Positions 24,101 to 30,155 of a DNA stretch of 62,779 nt are shown in pieces. The translations under genes were made by a program, and so were the position numbers. Position 1 is the first letter of the stretch. Every line of letters starts with the position of its first letter. The DNA lies in contig DXBF01000069.1 of the NCBI GenBank assembly GCA_019116705.1, positions 1 through 62,779 on the forward strand, given 5' to 3'. A model generated the notes under the pieces. The model was not told the DNA's origin. It worked only from the letters and a program-made list of their open reading frames with translations, and did not search any database. The DNA is from Candidatus Gemmiger avistercoris (lineage in GTDB: Bacteria > Bacillota > Clostridia > Oscillospirales > Ruminococcaceae).

Positions 24101-24137
24101 GAAAAAACGCCCGTTCGCGATGAACGGGCGTTTTGTG
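24101..24137. terminator. Bidirectional terminator between the CmpB-like gene and the ABC permease
   Basis: AAAACGCCCGTTC (24104-24116) pairs with 24122-24134 around a five-base loop, with A and T tracts on either side. It ends both the plus operon and the FHA operon. Confidence 0.88.
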
Positions 24138-24145
24138 CTGCCGTT

Positions 24146-24979
24146 TTATGCTTTGCGGCGGTCGAAGGAGATCTGCAAGACCAGCCAGGCAGCCACGATG
24201 CAGACCGCCGCGATGAGCGCCAGCATCTGCCAGCAGCCCAGCAGGTTGGCCACGGTGGCGTCGTACATGGGGCCGTCAAAGCCCGCTTTCAGCCAGGCCA
24301 GACGGCTGTTGAGGTCGGTGGAAGCGCCCAGCGCCCCCATGCCCCAGCGGCAGACGATGACCGAAGCGATGGCGCTGGCCGCGCCGGTCAGCGTGAAGAG
24401 GATGCCGCTGAACACCACCTGGCCGATCATGAGCACCAGCACCACAAGGATGGCGGTCTCGCCGCTTCTGAACACCGCAGACACCAGCAGGCCGGTGGCG
24501 CTGGAGGCGAACAGCATCAGCAGGACGGTGATGAAGATCTCCACATCGGTCTCAAACAGAAGATGGTTCTGGGGCACATGGACCACGTTCACGAAACCGA
24601 CGGTCAGGATGGCCGCCTGGGCCACCTCGATGAGCAGCAGCACGAAAGCCTTGCTGAGCACCACGGCCAGCAGGTTGACCCCCACCGAGGCTTCCCGCAG
24701 GATGATCTCCCGCTCTTTGCAGATCTCCCGGTAGGAGTTCAGCGTGCCCATGAACGCCGCCATGGCGCTGAGGATGAACAGCGCCGTGCGGCTGCCCACG
24801 TTGACCAGGTTGGAGGTAAAACAGTAGGGGTCCGCCACCAGGCGGATGACCAGCACCATGAAGGGCGCCTGCAGGATCAGGCTGGCCAGCAGCAGTTTGT
24901 CGTTGACGATCAGGCGCAGGTTGCGCTGCACCAGTACGGTGAACTGGCGCAGGGATTTCATTACTTTGACGGGGCGCAT
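24146..24979 (-). CDS. ABC-2 type permease (ABCG-like) of the FHA module
   Basis: 277 residues with six predicted membrane helices in the ABC-2/ABCG order. The segment after helix 2, NSYREICKEREIILREASVGVN, is the conserved coupling stretch of ABCG half-transporters (white/Rv1747 type). It overlaps the ATPase gene by 19 bases and starts at ATG 24979 with GGAGG nearby. It should pair with the double-FHA ATPase to form an exporter; the substrate, probably lipid-like or glycolipid by analogy with Rv1747, is unknown. Confidence 0.85.
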   Translation of the reverse strand: MRPVKVMKSLRQFTVLVQRNLRLIVNDKLLLASLILQAPFMVLVIRLVADPYCFTSNLVNVGSRTALFILSAMAAFMGTLNSYREICKEREIILREASVGVNLLAVVLSKAFVLLLIEVAQAAILTVGFVNVVHVPQNHLLFETDVEIFITVLLMLFASSATGLLVSAVFRSGETAILVVLVLMIGQVVFSGILFTLTGAASAIASVIVCRWGMGALGASTDLNSRLAWLKAGFDGPMYDATVANLLGCWQMLALIAAVCIVAAWLVLQISFDRRKA

Positions 24980-26490
24980 CGTTTGTCTGCCTCCTGTGCT
25001 GCTTCGGGCCAGGCCGCCGCCAGGCGGTTGAACTCCGGCGTGGTAAAATACTTGCGGCGGTACAGTTCCACCTGTTCGGGGTCGCGCAGTTTTTCAAAAA
25101 TATCGCTGGTCAGTTCCACCGCAAAATAGTCGTGGAGGGTTTCCGGCGGGCCGTAATAGCACAGCACGCCGCCCACCCCCAGGAACGCGATCCTGTCGCA
25201 GAGGTTGATGTTGGACATGTTGTGCGTGACCATGAGCACCGTGCAGTTCTGGTGGCTCAGGCGGCGGCACAGTTCCATCATGCTGCGGTCCAGATCTGGC
25301 GAAAGGCCGCTGGTAGGTTCGTCCAGAATCAGCAGGCGCGGGCTGGCCAGCAGTTCCATGGCGATGGAGACCCGCTTTTTCTGCCCGCCCGAAAGCTGGG
25401 AGATCAGCGTTTTTTCCCGGCCGTTGAGGTCCACCGCGTCGATGGCGTGGGCCACGGCGGCGGCGATCTCGGCTTTGCTGGCGTCGTGGGCGATGCGCAG
25501 CTTGGCGGTGAAGGTCAGGCTCTGCTCCACGGTCAGATTATCGTGCATGATGTCCTTTTGGGGCACATAGCCCAGCACCGCGTCGAAGGCGTTGCGGTTT
25601 CCCCGCGTCTCGACGCCGTCAAAGCGGACGCTGCCCGACGTGCAGGGGGCTGTGCCGGTGATGCAGGTAAGCAGGCTGGACTTGCCGGTGCCCGACCCGC
25701 CCACCAGCACCGTAAAGCTGTTGGGTTCGATCTCCAGGCTGGTGCCGTCCACGATGTTCAGGGGCTGCCGGGTGTTGCGGTCCTGCACGGTCTTGCAGAC
25801 GTTGAGCAGCTGCACGCTGATGCCGCTCTTGTGCACGTGGTAGTGCAGCAGGCCGCCGGTGAAGGCGAACACCTGGGCCGGCACATTGATGACGGAACCG
25901 TTGCGCAGCGCCGCCCGGCTGACCCGGACGCCGTCCACGTAGGTGCCGTTGGTGGAACCCAGATCCCGCACAAAGAACTGGCCGTCCTGGCAAAAGACCT
26001 CGCAGTGGTGGCGGGAGACGCGGTCGCTGACCAGTTGGATGTCGCAGTCCTCCCCGCGGCCGATGAGCACCCGCTTTTTGCGGCGCACATCGACTTCGCG
26101 CAGGATGGAGGCGTCGGGCTGTTCCCGCCGGGGTCCGGCGGAAACGTCCTGCGCCTCACGGATCGCCTCCACCCGGAAGGTGATCTCCTGGGTGGCGGCG
26201 TTGCCGTCGGTGTTGAGTCCGATCACATCGCCGGGCTGCAGGGCGCAGCGCTCCCCCGCCGCCAGATAGCGGTTGTTGTACCAGGTAGTGCCGTCCCCCG
26301 CTTCATCGGCCACCGTCCACTGTCCCTCGCTGTAACCGATGGAAAACTGGCGGTCGCCCACGCTGTTGCGGCGCAGCACATACTCGCACTGGGCACTGCG
26401 CCCGAAGCGGTAGGCCCCCCGGCCCGACGGCAGCGTGATGCGCTGGCGGTTGCGCTGTTCGGTGATAAGGAATACGATCTCACTCGGCAC
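24961..26490 (-). CDS. ABC transporter ATPase with two N-terminal FHA domains
   Basis: 509 residues. FHA1 (about 25-95) is degenerate: FGR at 29-31 is kept but the Ser-x-x-His pair is lost. FHA2 (about 138-205) is canonical: IGR 143-145, SRHH 159-162, LGSTNGT 177-183, so it should bind phosphothreonine. The ABC domain has Walker A GGSGTGKSS (264-272), signature LSGGQ (366-370) and Walker B LLILDEPTSGL (386-396), of ABCG type. The arrangement matches the front half of mycobacterial Rv1747, which is fused to its permease; here the permease is a separate overlapping gene. GTG start at 26490 with AAGGGGG upstream. Confidence 0.92.
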   Translation of the reverse strand: MPSEIVFLITEQRNRQRITLPSGRGAYRFGRSAQCEYVLRRNSVGDRQFSIGYSEGQWTVADEAGDGTTWYNNRYLAAGERCALQPGDVIGLNTDGNAATQEITFRVEAIREAQDVSAGPRREQPDASILREVDVRRKKRVLIGRGEDCDIQLVSDRVSRHHCEVFCQDGQFFVRDLGSTNGTYVDGVRVSRAALRNGSVINVPAQVFAFTGGLLHYHVHKSGISVQLLNVCKTVQDRNTRQPLNIVDGTSLEIEPNSFTVLVGGSGTGKSSLLTCITGTAPCTSGSVRFDGVETRGNRNAFDAVLGYVPQKDIMHDNLTVEQSLTFTAKLRIAHDASKAEIAAAVAHAIDAVDLNGREKTLISQLSGGQKKRVSIAMELLASPRLLILDEPTSGLSPDLDRSMMELCRRLSHQNCTVLMVTHNMSNINLCDRIAFLGVGGVLCYYGPPETLHDYFAVELTSDIFEKLRDPEQVELYRRKYFTTPEFNRLAAAWPEAAQEADKRCAPSK

Positions 26491-26502
26491 GGCTGCACCC
26501 CC

Positions 26503-26982
26503 TTACCATTGGAACCCGCCGCCGCAGAACGGCACGAACCGCAGGGTGGACTCCCCCAGCGTCAGTTCCGCGCCGGCCGCCAGCGGGCCGGGTTCCAGCA
26601 CCGCCCGGCCGCCCAGATAACACAGCTGCTGGGAAGAACCCGGCAGCAGGGTGAACGCGCCGGTCTTTTCGTCGTAGGCCACGGCCGCCTGCCGCACCCC
26701 CAGCGGGGCGTCGGGGCTGAGGGTGACGGGCGCAGCGGCCCCGTCCAGCCCCAGGAAAGTCCGCCCCACGCCCAGGCGCAGATCCCGCCCGCGCCCCGGG
26801 CCCGCGGTCACCACCAGCCAGCCCGTCACGGGGCCTTCCGGCGGCGCAGCCTCCGCCGCTTCCGCCGCCGCGCTGGTGTGGACGATGGCGCTCTCGCTCT
26901 GCAAATCGGTATTGCAGTAGGGGCAGGCAGGGTATTTGTCGCCGTCATAAAAATGCCCCTGTTCGCATTTGGTCAGTTTCAT
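26503..26982 (-). CDS. Zn-ribbon plus FHA-like domain protein
   Basis: 159 residues. Residues 1-25 form a single zinc ribbon (CEQGHFYDGDKYPACPYCN); a linker rich in Ala/Glu follows, then an FHA-like beta domain (about 52-155) that starts at LRLGVGRTFLGLDG and lacks the SxxH and STNGT phosphate-binding residues. Such small Zn-ribbon/FHA proteins commonly accompany FHA-type secretion or signalling operons in Firmicutes. It lies between the VWA/FHA gene (22 bases) and the ATPase gene (12 bases). Start at 26982 with GAGGAA upstream. Confidence 0.75.
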   Translation of the reverse strand: MKLTKCEQGHFYDGDKYPACPYCNTDLQSESAIVHTSAAAEAAEAAPPEGPVTGWLVVTAGPGRGRDLRLGVGRTFLGLDGAAAPVTLSPDAPLGVRQAAVAYDEKTGAFTLLPGSSQQLCYLGGRAVLEPGPLAAGAELTLGESTLRFVPFCGGGFQW

Positions 26983-27004
26983 CGCACGTTCCTCGCTTCT
27001 TTCC

Positions 27005-28720
27005 TCACAGTACCAGCCGCACCGTGGTGCGCCCCAGCCGCAGGGCGTCATTGTTTTGCAGGCGGTGTTCCCCCTCGATGCGTTCGCCGTTCACGAACAC
27101 CGGCGCGCCGGGGTCCAGCGTCTGTACCAGCAGCGACTCGCCGCGCACACACAGCACGCAGTGCTGGGCCCGCACCTGGGCATCCGGCAGGCAGAGGTCG
27201 CACTGGGCGGCGTCGCTGCCCAGGATCAGGCTGCTCTCCACCATGCCGGCCCAGCGGCTTTCGGCGATAGACCCTTTCTGCGCCCAGAACAGCGTCACCC
27301 AGCGGCGCGGCAGGGCGGCAGGCCCCTGGGTACCGGCCAGCAGATGTTCCGCCTCGGCGGTCTGTTCCGCCGCCCGGTCCCGCCGCCGCAGCCGCCGCCA
27401 CTGCAGGGCCAGCACCGCCAGCACGGCAGCCGCCAGCAGCAGCGGGGCGCGGAACCGCGCCAGATAGAAAGCCCGGTCCCGGGGCCAGACTGCGATCGTA
27501 AAATCCGTCTCGTCCCGCAGGGAACTGACGTTGGCGGGCGAAAGGCGACTGGACACCTTGTTCAGCGCCACATTGTAATTGCCCTTGTACAGCGGATCGG
27601 TGGTCAGCAGCACGATGCGGCCGTCCTCGCTGATCTCGACCTCGCGCACCGGCACATGCCAGTTCCAGATGTCGTTGCTGGCGACCCGGTAGAACTGGGG
27701 CCGCGTGGCGTTGGGGTTGACCGCCTGGTTCATCGTCAGGCGCAGCGTGTTGCGGCCAAGGACCTCGACCTTTTCCACCTGGGGCCGGGTCATGCGGAAC
27801 CCCATATAGACCGTGGTGCTGCTTTGCACCGCGCTGCCCAGGCTGGGGATGGACAGGGTGACGATCTCCTGCCGTTCCCCGGCCAGATTCTCGGGCACTT
27901 CGGTGCGCAGTTCCAGCGCCGAAGCCATCTGCTGCTGCAGGGCCAGCATCCCGTCGCCCATCTCGTCCATTGCGCAGGGGATGATCTGCCCGTTGCTGAG
28001 CGCCCGCAGCACTTCCAGCGCCTGCGGGGACGGGCCGCCCACAAAGGTGTAGAACGCGGCGTTGAGCGTGCCGGCGCCGGACGCTCCGGCCAGCAGCGCC
28101 GGCTGGCGGAACAGGCTGGCGGCCGCCGTGCAGAGGAACACCGCCTTGCGCGGCGCCAGGGCCTGATAATCCCGCTGGATGTCGCCCAGCAGCAGGGCGG
28201 GGGCTCCGGCGGCGTCCGGCGCGCCCTCGGCCTGTTCGATCCCCGCCAGCGCCGTATACAGAGAGGACGCGTCGGAGGTGGCGGGCTGCACGCAGGCCGC
28301 GCCGCCCGCCAGGGTATACAGGGCGATCTGGTCGTTGGGCTCCTTGTGGCGGATCAGCTGCCAGACCGCCCCGCGCATCTGGCGGAAATCGGCAGGTTCG
28401 ATCTCCGCACTGTTATCCAGCACGACCAGGTAGCAGACCGGGCTGCTGGCCTGCCCCAGCGAACTGGCGTCCAGCGTGTGATCGCCCAGCGTCAGTTCCA
28501 GCCCCGCCGCCTGCACCATCGTGGGGGTGTAGGCGTTGCCCTCGGCGTCCTGCGCGTAGAAAAACACGTTCATATCGGGCACGTTGACATACGCCTGTTC
28601 CAGCCGGAAGGCGCCCGCCCCGCCGGTCATCGTCGTGGTATCGGCCCGCGGCGCCGGCGCGGTCAGCAGGCAGAGCACCAGCGCCGCGAACAGAGCCAGC
28701 GGGTATCGTAGGGTCTTCAC
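27005..28720 (-). CDS. Membrane protein with extracytoplasmic VWA-like domain and cytosolic FHA domain
   Basis: 571 residues. Signal peptide 1-26, an extracytoplasmic domain containing a VWA-like strand YLVVLDNSAEI (97-107) in which the metal-site DxSxS reads D-N-S-A-E, then Ig-like beta sections, one transmembrane helix at about 428-447 followed by RRLRRRDR, and a cytosolic C-terminal FHA-like domain (about 490-570; LGSD, QHC and VNGE positions recognisable, STNGT lost). It probably senses or scaffolds something outside and docks the FHA module inside. GTG start at 28720 with GGAGG. Neighbours are 15 and 22 bases away. Confidence 0.8.
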   Translation of the reverse strand: MKTLRYPLALFAALVLCLLTAPAPRADTTTMTGGAGAFRLEQAYVNVPDMNVFFYAQDAEGNAYTPTMVQAAGLELTLGDHTLDASSLGQASSPVCYLVVLDNSAEIEPADFRQMRGAVWQLIRHKEPNDQIALYTLAGGAACVQPATSDASSLYTALAGIEQAEGAPDAAGAPALLLGDIQRDYQALAPRKAVFLCTAAASLFRQPALLAGASGAGTLNAAFYTFVGGPSPQALEVLRALSNGQIIPCAMDEMGDGMLALQQQMASALELRTEVPENLAGERQEIVTLSIPSLGSAVQSSTTVYMGFRMTRPQVEKVEVLGRNTLRLTMNQAVNPNATRPQFYRVASNDIWNWHVPVREVEISEDGRIVLLTTDPLYKGNYNVALNKVSSRLSPANVSSLRDETDFTIAVWPRDRAFYLARFRAPLLLAAAVLAVLALQWRRLRRRDRAAEQTAEAEHLLAGTQGPAALPRRWVTLFWAQKGSIAESRWAGMVESSLILGSDAAQCDLCLPDAQVRAQHCVLCVRGESLLVQTLDPGAPVFVNGERIEGEHRLQNNDALRLGRTTVRLVL

Positions 28721-28735
28721 GCACAGCCTCCTGTT

Positions 28736-30088
28736 TTACTGTATCGGTTGCATGCGGTCCAGTTTGCTGTGCAGCGCGCGCAGGGCCGCCAGCACCTTCC
28801 GGCGGCGGGGATCCTGCGCGGGGGTGCGCTCAGGCAGGATCTCGATCCCGCCGTCCGCATCCCCGTCGTCCTCGTCCGCGGCGCTCAGGTCCGGCATCAG
28901 GGGCGTGTGGGGGCCGCGGGCGGGCGGTTCTTCATCCAGGATCGGTTCGCCCTCCTGCCGCAGAATGGGGTAAGAGAAGATCGCCCCCGGCACCTCGATC
29001 TCCGGCGGGTCGCTGGGCTGGTCCTTCGGTTCGGTGTCAAAATACTCCGGCGAGGGGGTGGTCTCCCCCTCCGGCGCGGGCAGCACCACCGGCTCCGGGG
29101 CGGGCTCCGCTTCGTCCAGGCCAGGTGCGACCACACAGTTTACCGGCGCGGGGCCCTGCAGGCTGCCGTCCGTTTGCTCCGGCTGCGGCAGGGCGGCCGC
29201 CGCCGCACGCACCGTCTGGTCCGAAAGGTCCAGTTCCGGCTCGGGCGCTTCCTGCAGGCCCACGTCCCGGTAGGGCGCCAGCGGGCTGTTCTGGCGGGCA
29301 TAGTCCTGGGCTTCCTGCAGTTCCCCGATCATCTCGGCCAGAAAATCCAGCAGCTTGTCCCGCTGCTGCTCCATCGCCGTAATGCGGCTCTGCAGGTCCT
29401 GCAAACGCAGGCGGTGGGCGTTCTGGATCTCCTGCGTCTCATCGGTGGCGGCCTGCACCATCTTGCGCGCCTGGCTGATGGCCTGGTCCCGCGCCAGCTG
29501 GTCGATGGCCTCCGCCTTGCGGTTGGCCTCCGCCAGCAGCGCGTCGGCGTCCGCCCGGGCCTGGGCGCGGATCTTGTCTGCCTCGGCGTTTGCCTGCGCC
29601 AGCACCTGGTCCCGGTCGCTTTCCAGTTTCTGCCGCGCTTCGTCGTGGGCGCGCCCCTTGATGCGCAGCGCGGCCTCGGCGTTTTCGGCGCGCTCGTTCA
29701 GTTCCTGTTTTTCCCGCGTAAGGTCGCTGTTTTTCAGGCGCAGCACCGCCACCTGGTCAGTCAGGGAGTGGTTGCGCTCCTGCACTTTGGCATAACGCGC
29801 CGCCAGATCGTCCTGCCGCCGGGCGATCTTGTCCGTCTGCCCGGCCAGCGTTGCGTTCTGGGCCGCCAGGTTCTGGTTCTGCCCCAGCAGCGTCTGGCAG
29901 CGGCGGCGCAACGCCTCGCCTTCCTGCCGGGCCGCGCGGGTCTCGGCCGCCGCGCTGGCAAGACTCTGTTCATAGTCGCCGCACAGGGCACGCAGGGCCG
30001 CGCGCACGTCCTCGGGTTCGTACCCGCCGAATCGCGCTTTGCGCACCCCGCACTGTTCCATGTACTGGTTTGGATCGATTTTTGCCAT
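28736..30088 (-). CDS. DivIVA-like coiled-coil protein heading the FHA operon
   Basis: 450 residues. The N-terminus KARFGGYEPEDVRAAL (about 17-32) matches the DivIVA/GpsB membrane-curvature signature (F..GY...DV). Residues about 33-255 are a long coiled coil with an AEADKIRAQARADADAL stretch, as in DivIVA relatives; residues about 270-420 are acidic and Pro-rich, and the last 30 are basic. Such proteins sit at poles or septa and recruit partners, so it may place the exporter at the division site (inference). ATG at 30088; the TTG three codons upstream is not needed. First gene after the promoter at 30127-30155. Confidence 0.75.
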   Translation of the reverse strand: MAKIDPNQYMEQCGVRKARFGGYEPEDVRAALRALCGDYEQSLASAAAETRAARQEGEALRRRCQTLLGQNQNLAAQNATLAGQTDKIARRQDDLAARYAKVQERNHSLTDQVAVLRLKNSDLTREKQELNERAENAEAALRIKGRAHDEARQKLESDRDQVLAQANAEADKIRAQARADADALLAEANRKAEAIDQLARDQAISQARKMVQAATDETQEIQNAHRLRLQDLQSRITAMEQQRDKLLDFLAEMIGELQEAQDYARQNSPLAPYRDVGLQEAPEPELDLSDQTVRAAAAALPQPEQTDGSLQGPAPVNCVVAPGLDEAEPAPEPVVLPAPEGETTPSPEYFDTEPKDQPSDPPEIEVPGAIFSYPILRQEGEPILDEEPPARGPHTPLMPDLSAADEDDGDADGGIEILPERTPAQDPRRRKVLAALRALHSKLDRMQPIQ

Positions 30089-30126
30089 AGAACGCAATCC
30101 CCCGACAAATTTGTATATATAGTATC

Positions 30127-30155
30127 ATTATACGGCAAGGGATTGTTGAACGCAA
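30127..30155 (-). promoter_or_regulatory. Promoter of the FHA/ABC operon
   Basis: On the minus strand TTGCGT, 17-base spacer, TATAAT. It serves five tightly spaced genes down to 24146. Confidence 0.75.

Follow-up and report, generated by a model that had tools for sequence, protein, structure and literature searches.

Contig DXBF01000069.1 of Candidatus Gemmiger avistercoris, analysed over its whole length of 62,779 nucleotides (the window; contig C38 of a 1.95-Mb genome that is 83% complete), carries five minus-strand open reading frames (ORFs) that encode, in order, a coiled-coil protein (gene 1), a VWA/FHA membrane protein (gene 2), a Zn-ribbon/FHA protein (gene 3), an ABC ATPase with two FHA domains (gene 4) and an ABC-2 permease (gene 5). 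This operon is real and conserved at the level of the genus, and it is a new variant among FHA- and kinase-linked export modules. Its interest lies in the combination of a missing kinase and phosphatase with three lost phosphothreonine pockets and one that is kept. From sequence comparison, we give an even chance to the reading that a formerly kinase-coupled exporter cassette has been reduced in Gemmiger to a single phospho-reader, probably served by a PASTA kinase in trans. Handles beginning with L, G and C denote loci, genomes and contigs of the source genome, respectively.

Genes 1 to 4 are separated by 15, 22 and 12 bases, and genes 4 and 5 overlap by 19 bases, so the ORF coordinates agree with the genes, spacing and overlap described in a first-pass annotation of this DNA. 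Its description of a double-FHA ABC ATPase with a separate ABC-2 permease was confirmed by Pfam: gene 4 matches FHA twice (E = 2.6e-32) and ABC_tran (8.7e-30), gene 5 matches ABC2_membrane (4.4e-12), and with ATPase and permease both present the pair is, by these domains, an ABC-2 exporter. We surveyed 61 genomes (our own and 60 relatives), 35 of them Gemmiger, including G. formicilis ATCC 27749. The operon ATPase is found at at least 73% identity in 22 of the 35 (in G007 the match runs into the end of a contig). Eighteen of the 21 other operon loci were fetched (G011, G017 and G023 were left out; L042 and L061 end at contig edges). All 16 complete loci (L043-L058) have all five genes in the same order with intact reading frames, giving the full order in 16 of the 17 Gemmiger loci L042-L058, with the 17th interrupted by the contig edge. 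In the window and each of the 17 loci, the ATPase and the permease occupy two distinct ORFs that overlap, by 13-22 bases in L043-L058, and abcB and trmB lie directly downstream of the operon in 13 of the 17. The first-pass annotation had staked its proposal on the gene order being kept in relatives. This holds within Gemmiger, but beyond the genus the five-gene order was not found, and the VWA and Zn-ribbon/FHA genes sit there in clusters with PP2C, kinase and FHA genes.

The domains expected in genes 2 and 3 were also confirmed, from Pfam, a structural model and homologs. Gene 2 matches FHA (9.2e-12) and VWA_2 (1.4e-6), and its AlphaFold2 (AF2) model (mean predicted local distance difference test score (pLDDT) 77.4, predicted template modelling score (pTM) 0.50) has a VWA domain, a beta-sandwich, a long transmembrane helix (residues 424-458) and the FHA domain. 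The positions of two hydrophobic stretches, residues 8-26 and 420-438, suggest that the VWA domain is outside the membrane and the FHA domain inside. The best folds in a fold search are VWA proteins, with ArnAB (8s05) at ranks 5 and 6 and template modelling (TM)-scores near 0.25 (query). The VWA metal-site motif DxSxS is present in six of six relatives versus two of 17 Gemmiger sequences (L052 and L057). The gene 3 protein of the window has no Pfam FHA match, one of ten Gemmiger members has a weak one (E = 0.035), and the homolog L096:7175-7768 matches the family (5.9e-8); the Zn-ribbon cysteines are conserved in 18/18 Gemmiger and 27/27 relatives.

We then compared the phosphothreonine pockets, at the positions described for FHA domains, in 18 Gemmiger sequences (17 for gene 2) and in relatives (six for gene 2, 27 for gene 3, and four C41-type plus nine fused proteins for gene 4). 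Only FHA2 of the ATPase retains Arg, Ser, His, Thr and Asn, each in 18/18, and the earlier claim that it alone among the four FHA domains has a full pocket is upheld by sequence. FHA1 of the same protein keeps Arg in 18/18 and has lost Ser, His and Asn in every one, whereas the relatives retain Ser (4/4 C41-type, 8/9 fused) and Asn (4/4 and 9/9). In the gene 2 domain, Arg (0/17 versus 6/6), Thr (0/17 versus 6/6), Asn (0/17 versus 6/6) and most Ser (2/17 versus 6/6) are gone, while His is kept (17/17 and 6/6). The gene 3 domain shows Arg in 0/18 versus 27/27, His in 0/18 versus 21/27, Ser in 8/18 versus 24/27 and the Asn position in 5/18 versus 25/27. In relatives, the linker of gene 3 may contain a phospho-site of the form KT(V/I)G (13/27, versus 0/18 in Gemmiger), but this was set aside, the pattern being too loose to use.

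Homologs outside the genus place genes 2, 3 and 4 in a different setting. We searched profiles in 341 genomes of the class Clostridia, including our own, drawn evenly from a larger group. Besides our own, the gene 2 profile found six genomes, the gene 4 profile (E ≤ 1e-60) eight, with open frames of 680-807 amino acids, and the gene 3 profile 26, at 27 places. The gene 4 relatives that were read are fused with a permease domain (L106 is cut). Within 7 kb of the 27 gene 3 places, where the contig allows, there is PP2C at 26 (L229 is the single exception), a Ser/Thr kinase (STK) at 16, VWA at seven, FHA-ABC at three and another FHA gene at 25. In L096, for example, the row is STK, M15_4 carboxypeptidase, PP2C, trypsin/FHA, PP2C, Zn/FHA, VWA/FHA and a fused FHA-FHA-ABC-ABC2 gene; L234 has a split FHA-FHA-ABC and permease, two PP2C genes, Zn/FHA and a PASTA kinase. 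The clusters L096, L098-L101, L103, L231 and L234 share with the operon the Zn-ribbon/FHA gene and in part VWA/FHA and FHA-FHA-ABC, but differ in that all carry PP2C and all except L101 an STK within 7 kb, and in having mostly intact pockets. The fused FHA-FHA-ABC-ABC2 gene also stands beside PP2C and kinase in L060 and in a Gemmiger genome that does not carry the five-gene operon (G012, L059:5269-11073). Genes 2, 3 and 4 thus all have homologs in a Clostridial kinase/PP2C/FHA cassette, and the kinase and PP2C are missing from the Gemmiger locus: STK and PP2C profiles found nothing in 16 Gemmiger operon loci or across the whole window, as the first-pass annotation had stated for the window. 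Since relatives mostly have both intact pockets and a kinase, the decayed FHA domains and the absent kinase of Gemmiger would seem to form a single derived state.

A kinase would then have to act from elsewhere, as had been proposed. Every one of the 61 genomes has a Pkinase match at E ≤ 1e-8. Our own has three: a PASTA kinase (three PASTA domains, adjoining a PP2C gene), the kinase on contig C41, and a type found on C11 with two PASTA domains. This last protein (L011:6389-8044, G000:C11) is a Zn-ribbon kinase-like protein with HRG and GYG. Because HRG/GYG is read in 15 of 15 copies checked, all from operon-bearing Gemmiger genomes, the C11 type is by sequence a pseudokinase, and it was rejected as the active kinase. 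The kinases of L096, L098, L099, L100 and L103 have the C41 kinase as their best match, but it was rejected as a cognate kinase for all Gemmiger; its cluster occurs in four of the 35 genomes versus 22 with the operon. PASTA-type kinases from 36 genomes (26 Gemmiger), typed by similarity, with three PASTA domains confirmed in our own copy and in G017, read DFG in 36, HRD in 35 and HQD in one. Among the matches listed, 11 of the 22 operon-bearing genomes (G003, G005, G006, G007, G011, G017, G018, G019, G021, G022 and G027) have none beyond one strong kinase and, in all but G017 (10/11), one C11-type match; the C11 type was assigned from the match pattern alone in G007 and G011, the strong kinase of G011 and G019 was not fetched, weaker Pkinase candidates lie below the threshold in several of these genomes, and some genomes are incomplete. 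The single strong kinase makes the PASTA kinase the simplest guess, and by co-occurrence in these partly incomplete genomes it probably serves the exporter in trans, which narrows the earlier claim to one candidate.

Taken together, the five genes would encode one Gemmiger membrane assembly. Genes 4 and 5 would supply its exporter, gene 2 a transmembrane protein with VWA out and FHA in, gene 3 an adaptor with Zn-ribbon and FHA, and gene 1 a coiled-coil protein that is probably co-transcribed with the others. By homology and neighbourhood, genes 2-4 are part of a broader Clostridial cassette that encodes a Ser/Thr kinase, PP2C phosphatases and FHA proteins side by side; Gemmiger would have lost the linked kinase and PP2C along with three pockets, rather than preserving an ancestral state. 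The three pocket-less FHA domains may hold the complex together without phosphorylation, leaving FHA2 of the ATPase as the remaining phospho-input. Its signal would be a threonine phosphorylated in trans, with the core PASTA kinase as the simplest source; this residue could lie on another protein or in the tail of the ATPase itself, and docking of FHA2 would switch the exporter. The substrate might be an envelope component, a guess from relatives' neighbours that include a predicted D,D-carboxypeptidase (M15_4 in L096, L101 and L103) and amidase (Amidase_3 in L060).

The tail offers a candidate ligand for FHA2. No threonine of gene 1 or gene 3 is invariant over all rows; gene 2 has four such residues, gene 4 has 21 and gene 5 has five. 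Thr483-Thr484 of the ATPase are invariant in 18/18, within Y[FY]TTxxFN (also 18/18), and the pair is absent at the equivalent place in C41-type and fused relatives. This Gemmiger-specific pair is reminiscent of the ETT motif of GarA and OdhI. Rv1747, a mycobacterial exporter, reportedly has a phosphothreonine site in the linker between its FHA domains; in Gemmiger a site in the FHA1-FHA2 linker was rejected, as the linker holds no invariant Thr. A bolder proposal, which we regard as rather unlikely, is that Gemmiger turned a module under kinase and phosphatase control into a largely phosphorylation-independent machine in which FHA2, as the last phospho-reader, recognises a new, lineage-specific Thr-Thr site in the tail of its own ATPase, so that reader and ligand reside in one transporter plugged into the housekeeping PASTA kinase.

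Several observations weigh against the reduced-cassette reading and its proposed ligand. Conservation extends to the residues flanking Thr483-Thr484, and the pair may therefore have a structural role. Arg is still present in FHA1, Ser in some gene 3 domains and the metal-site motif in two Gemmiger VWA domains. The exporter ATPase is missing (E ≤ 1e-30) from 13 of the 35 Gemmiger genomes. No FHA-ABC gene lies within 7 kb in L098-L101, and the queries used found no kinase or PP2C in L102, L107 and L108 (one or two neighbours were scanned in L102 and L107), exceptions by which the link between kinase/PP2C and export is not general. The relatives found by profile are biased to well-kept members, and the neighbourhood profiles were trained partly on loci in which they were also tested (PP2C on L096, L098, L101 and L103; STK on L096, L098, L099, L100 and L103; VWA on L096-L101).

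The first-pass annotation had favoured an exporter resembling Rv1747, phospho-switched and placed at the septum or pole by gene 1 as a DivIVA-type scaffold, with all FHA parts in phospho-signalling. Its split double-FHA exporter and single full pocket stand, but the loss of the other three pockets in Gemmiger speaks against signalling through all FHA parts, and the scaffold is weakened. Gene 1 is first in the operon in all 16 loci that reach it and is indeed a coiled coil, with a weak likeness to DivIVA by sequence. Seven of ten family members match Pfam DivIVA over their full length at E ≤ 0.01 (best 4.2e-5), and seven of ten do so with the N-terminal 65 amino acids at E ≤ 0.05 (maximum 20.7 bits, none over the cut-off); the window protein scores 20.1 bits, below the curated cut-off of 28. 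The AF2 monomer (mean pLDDT 72.6, pTM 0.26) has a layout that might fit DivIVA (a short first helix, a loop and then an extended parallel coiled coil), with helices at residues 6-12 and 25-267, a disordered tail and a helix at 427-446. A PDB profile search with gene 1 gave five matches at E ≤ 0.01, no DivIVA among them. We found no full-length homolog in the 340 other genomes of the class, 11 of which match coiled-coil stretches only, and the gene 1 profile recognised none in L096-L103.

Gene 1 also occurs without the exporter. Of the 13 Gemmiger genomes that lack the operon ATPase, 11 yielded trmB; eight sites were fetched and seven were readable (L247 was excluded, as its contig stops 229 bases past abcB, before the operon position). 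In two of these seven (L244 and L246, from G008 and G015), gene 1 stands alone beside abcB, while the stretches fetched for the other five contain no gene of the operon; two unrelated ABC matches occur in the L246 stretch. The stand-alone copies (L244:6815-8407 and L246:6915-8315) keep the GAIFS motif of the tail and the upstream TATAAT box, are each followed by a hairpin with a T-run (by eye), and both miss the DivIVA profile at E ≤ 0.001. Gene 1 can thus persist at this place, where the operon is usually located, in the absence of the exporter. Because gene 1 is also found alone and is marginal by profile, and because a second, canonical DivIVA is encoded on contig C43 of the same genome, a dedicated DivIVA scaffold for the exporter is doubtful, and we judge the scaffolded, fully phospho-signalling exporter unlikely.

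We think it similarly improbable that the machine is independent of phosphorylation altogether, with FHA2 also structural, no kinase control and the C11 pseudokinase as a possible partner, comparable to reports on YukB/EssC FHA domains and the YukC/EssB pseudokinase. Such an arrangement would suit the lack of a linked kinase or PP2C, the three degenerate FHA domains and the co-occurrence of the PASTA-bearing pseudokinase, and it has precedent: in Bacillus subtilis, the YukB FHA region co-purifies with the YukC pseudokinase (PMC9600267), and the EssC FHA domains of type VII secretion system (T7SS) variant T7SSb have no phosphothreonine site according to Garrett et al. (PMC11217815). However, the FHA2 pocket is complete throughout while the other three decayed, and C11-type matches also occur in operon-free Gemmiger genomes, so their co-occurrence is not specific. 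That the exporter is a decaying relic whose FHA losses are neutral erosion, as its absence from some Gemmiger genomes and the lost pockets might suggest, is very improbable given intact reading frames in 16 complete loci, Walker and signature regions invariant in ten aligned ATPases, and mean identities to the window across 17 orthologs of 0.74 for FHA1, 0.79 for FHA2 and 0.89 for the nucleotide-binding domain.

The closest known system, likened by description, is Rv1747 of Mycobacterium tuberculosis with PknF (PMC3908365). In both, a pair of FHA domains precedes the ABC ATPase, but Rv1747 is one polypeptide, and its FHA I binds phospho-Rv2623 (its loss lowers phosphatidylinositol mannoside (PIM) levels; PMC5549992), whereas the Gemmiger operon has separate ATPase and permease genes, an FHA1 whose pocket appears lost, no linked kinase gene and three extra genes. 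A split double-FHA exporter is also encoded by the C41 cluster of the same genome (L009:5881-11792; PP2C, FHA-FHA-ABC, permease and STK), but its ATPase is 27% identical over residues 152-473, its pockets are kept and kinase and PP2C are adjacent. In T7SS variants c-f, described by Garrett et al. (PMC11217815), a membrane export machine is likewise encoded together with kinases, PPM phosphatases and both FHA and vWA parts, and some of the FHA pockets are degenerate; unlike the ABC-2 exporter of Gemmiger, these systems rely on EssC/TsxC ATPases of the FtsK type and on WXG100 proteins. ArnA/ArnB of Sulfolobus also pair an FHA with a VWA protein, but are described (PMC6509490) as archaeal motility regulators and not an exporter, and the Gemmiger VWA domain is predicted to lie outside the membrane. 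A limited literature search found no paper on the five-gene operon, and nothing useful on Gemmiger budding and gene 1.

Degenerate FHA domains are already known; what Gemmiger adds is a matched natural set, in which homologs with kinase, phosphatase and intact pockets can be compared with those of one genus that has none of these linked and one reader left. Such a comparison of natural orthologs makes the role of pocket-less FHA domains testable, and it yields a concrete regulatory prediction for an exporter in a gut species that has been cultured, Gemmiger formicilis. If the descent from a kinase-coupled cassette is true, the operon would offer a naturally occurring example of how a signalling switch is rebuilt. 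Branches in the exporter tree are long, and the order in which the split and fused forms arose was not read from it.

Table 1. Features of the operon region, in window coordinates.
Feature	Position	Strand	Basis
Promoter-like site, TTGCGT - 17 bases - TATAAT	30127..30155	-	Sequence; TATAAT recurrence across loci
Gene 1: coiled-coil, weakly DivIVA-like N-terminus, disordered tail with invariant GAIFS, C-terminal helix	28736..30088	-	ATG at 30088
Gene 2: N-terminal hydrophobic stretch, VWA, beta-sandwich, one transmembrane helix, FHA	27005..28720	-	Pfam, AF2, fold search
FHA of gene 2, pocket residues lost	27032..27226	-	Alignment
Gene 3: Zn-ribbon and degenerate FHA	26503..26982	-	Alignment, homolog Pfam matches
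Gene 4: FHA-FHA-ABC ATPase	24961..26490	-	Pfam
FHA1 of gene 4; pocket Ser/His/Asn lost, Arg kept	26215..26412	-	Alignment
FHA2 of gene 4, complete pocket	25885..26070	-	Alignment
Thr483-Thr484 codons, ATPase C-terminal tail; putative FHA2 ligand	25039..25044	-	18/18 invariance
Gene 5: ABC-2 permease	24146..24979	-	Pfam
Terminator-like hairpin and T-run, 3' of gene 5	24102..24134	-	Sequence, fold

At the promoter proposed for the operon, a TATAAT box (30132-30127 in the window) recurs upstream of gene 1 in 16 of 17 loci, the window among them. Its distance from the gene is 44-69 bases, and 44 in eight of these loci; L057 is the one locus that has none. But a consensus promoter scan of the operon region found no site at its thresholds, and the -35 hexamer is poor. 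The terminator-like hairpin after gene 5 is missing from the scan listing on the operon strand. In G. formicilis ATCC 27749, 420 bases (L052:8954-9373) that contain inverted-repeat-like sequence separate genes 2 and 3. The disordered tail of gene 1 carries GAIFS.PI at residues 368-375 (window 28964-28987), retained in both stand-alone copies, which from its sequence looks like a binding motif.

Among the kinase/PP2C/FHA clusters of relatives, a trypsin-like protease is fused to FHA in L096:5338-6420 and L222:8250-9761. In L220, L221, L223, L224, L227, L228 and L230, the Zn-ribbon/FHA gene stands beside a further FHA gene and PP2C-like genes, and these loci also encode small proteins of about 142 amino acids and one protein of about 725 amino acids. 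One of the small proteins of L220 has a weak match to Hcp/TssD (E = 0.0014), and L220 also carries a DnaJ gene; these are possibly an unrecognised secretion locus.

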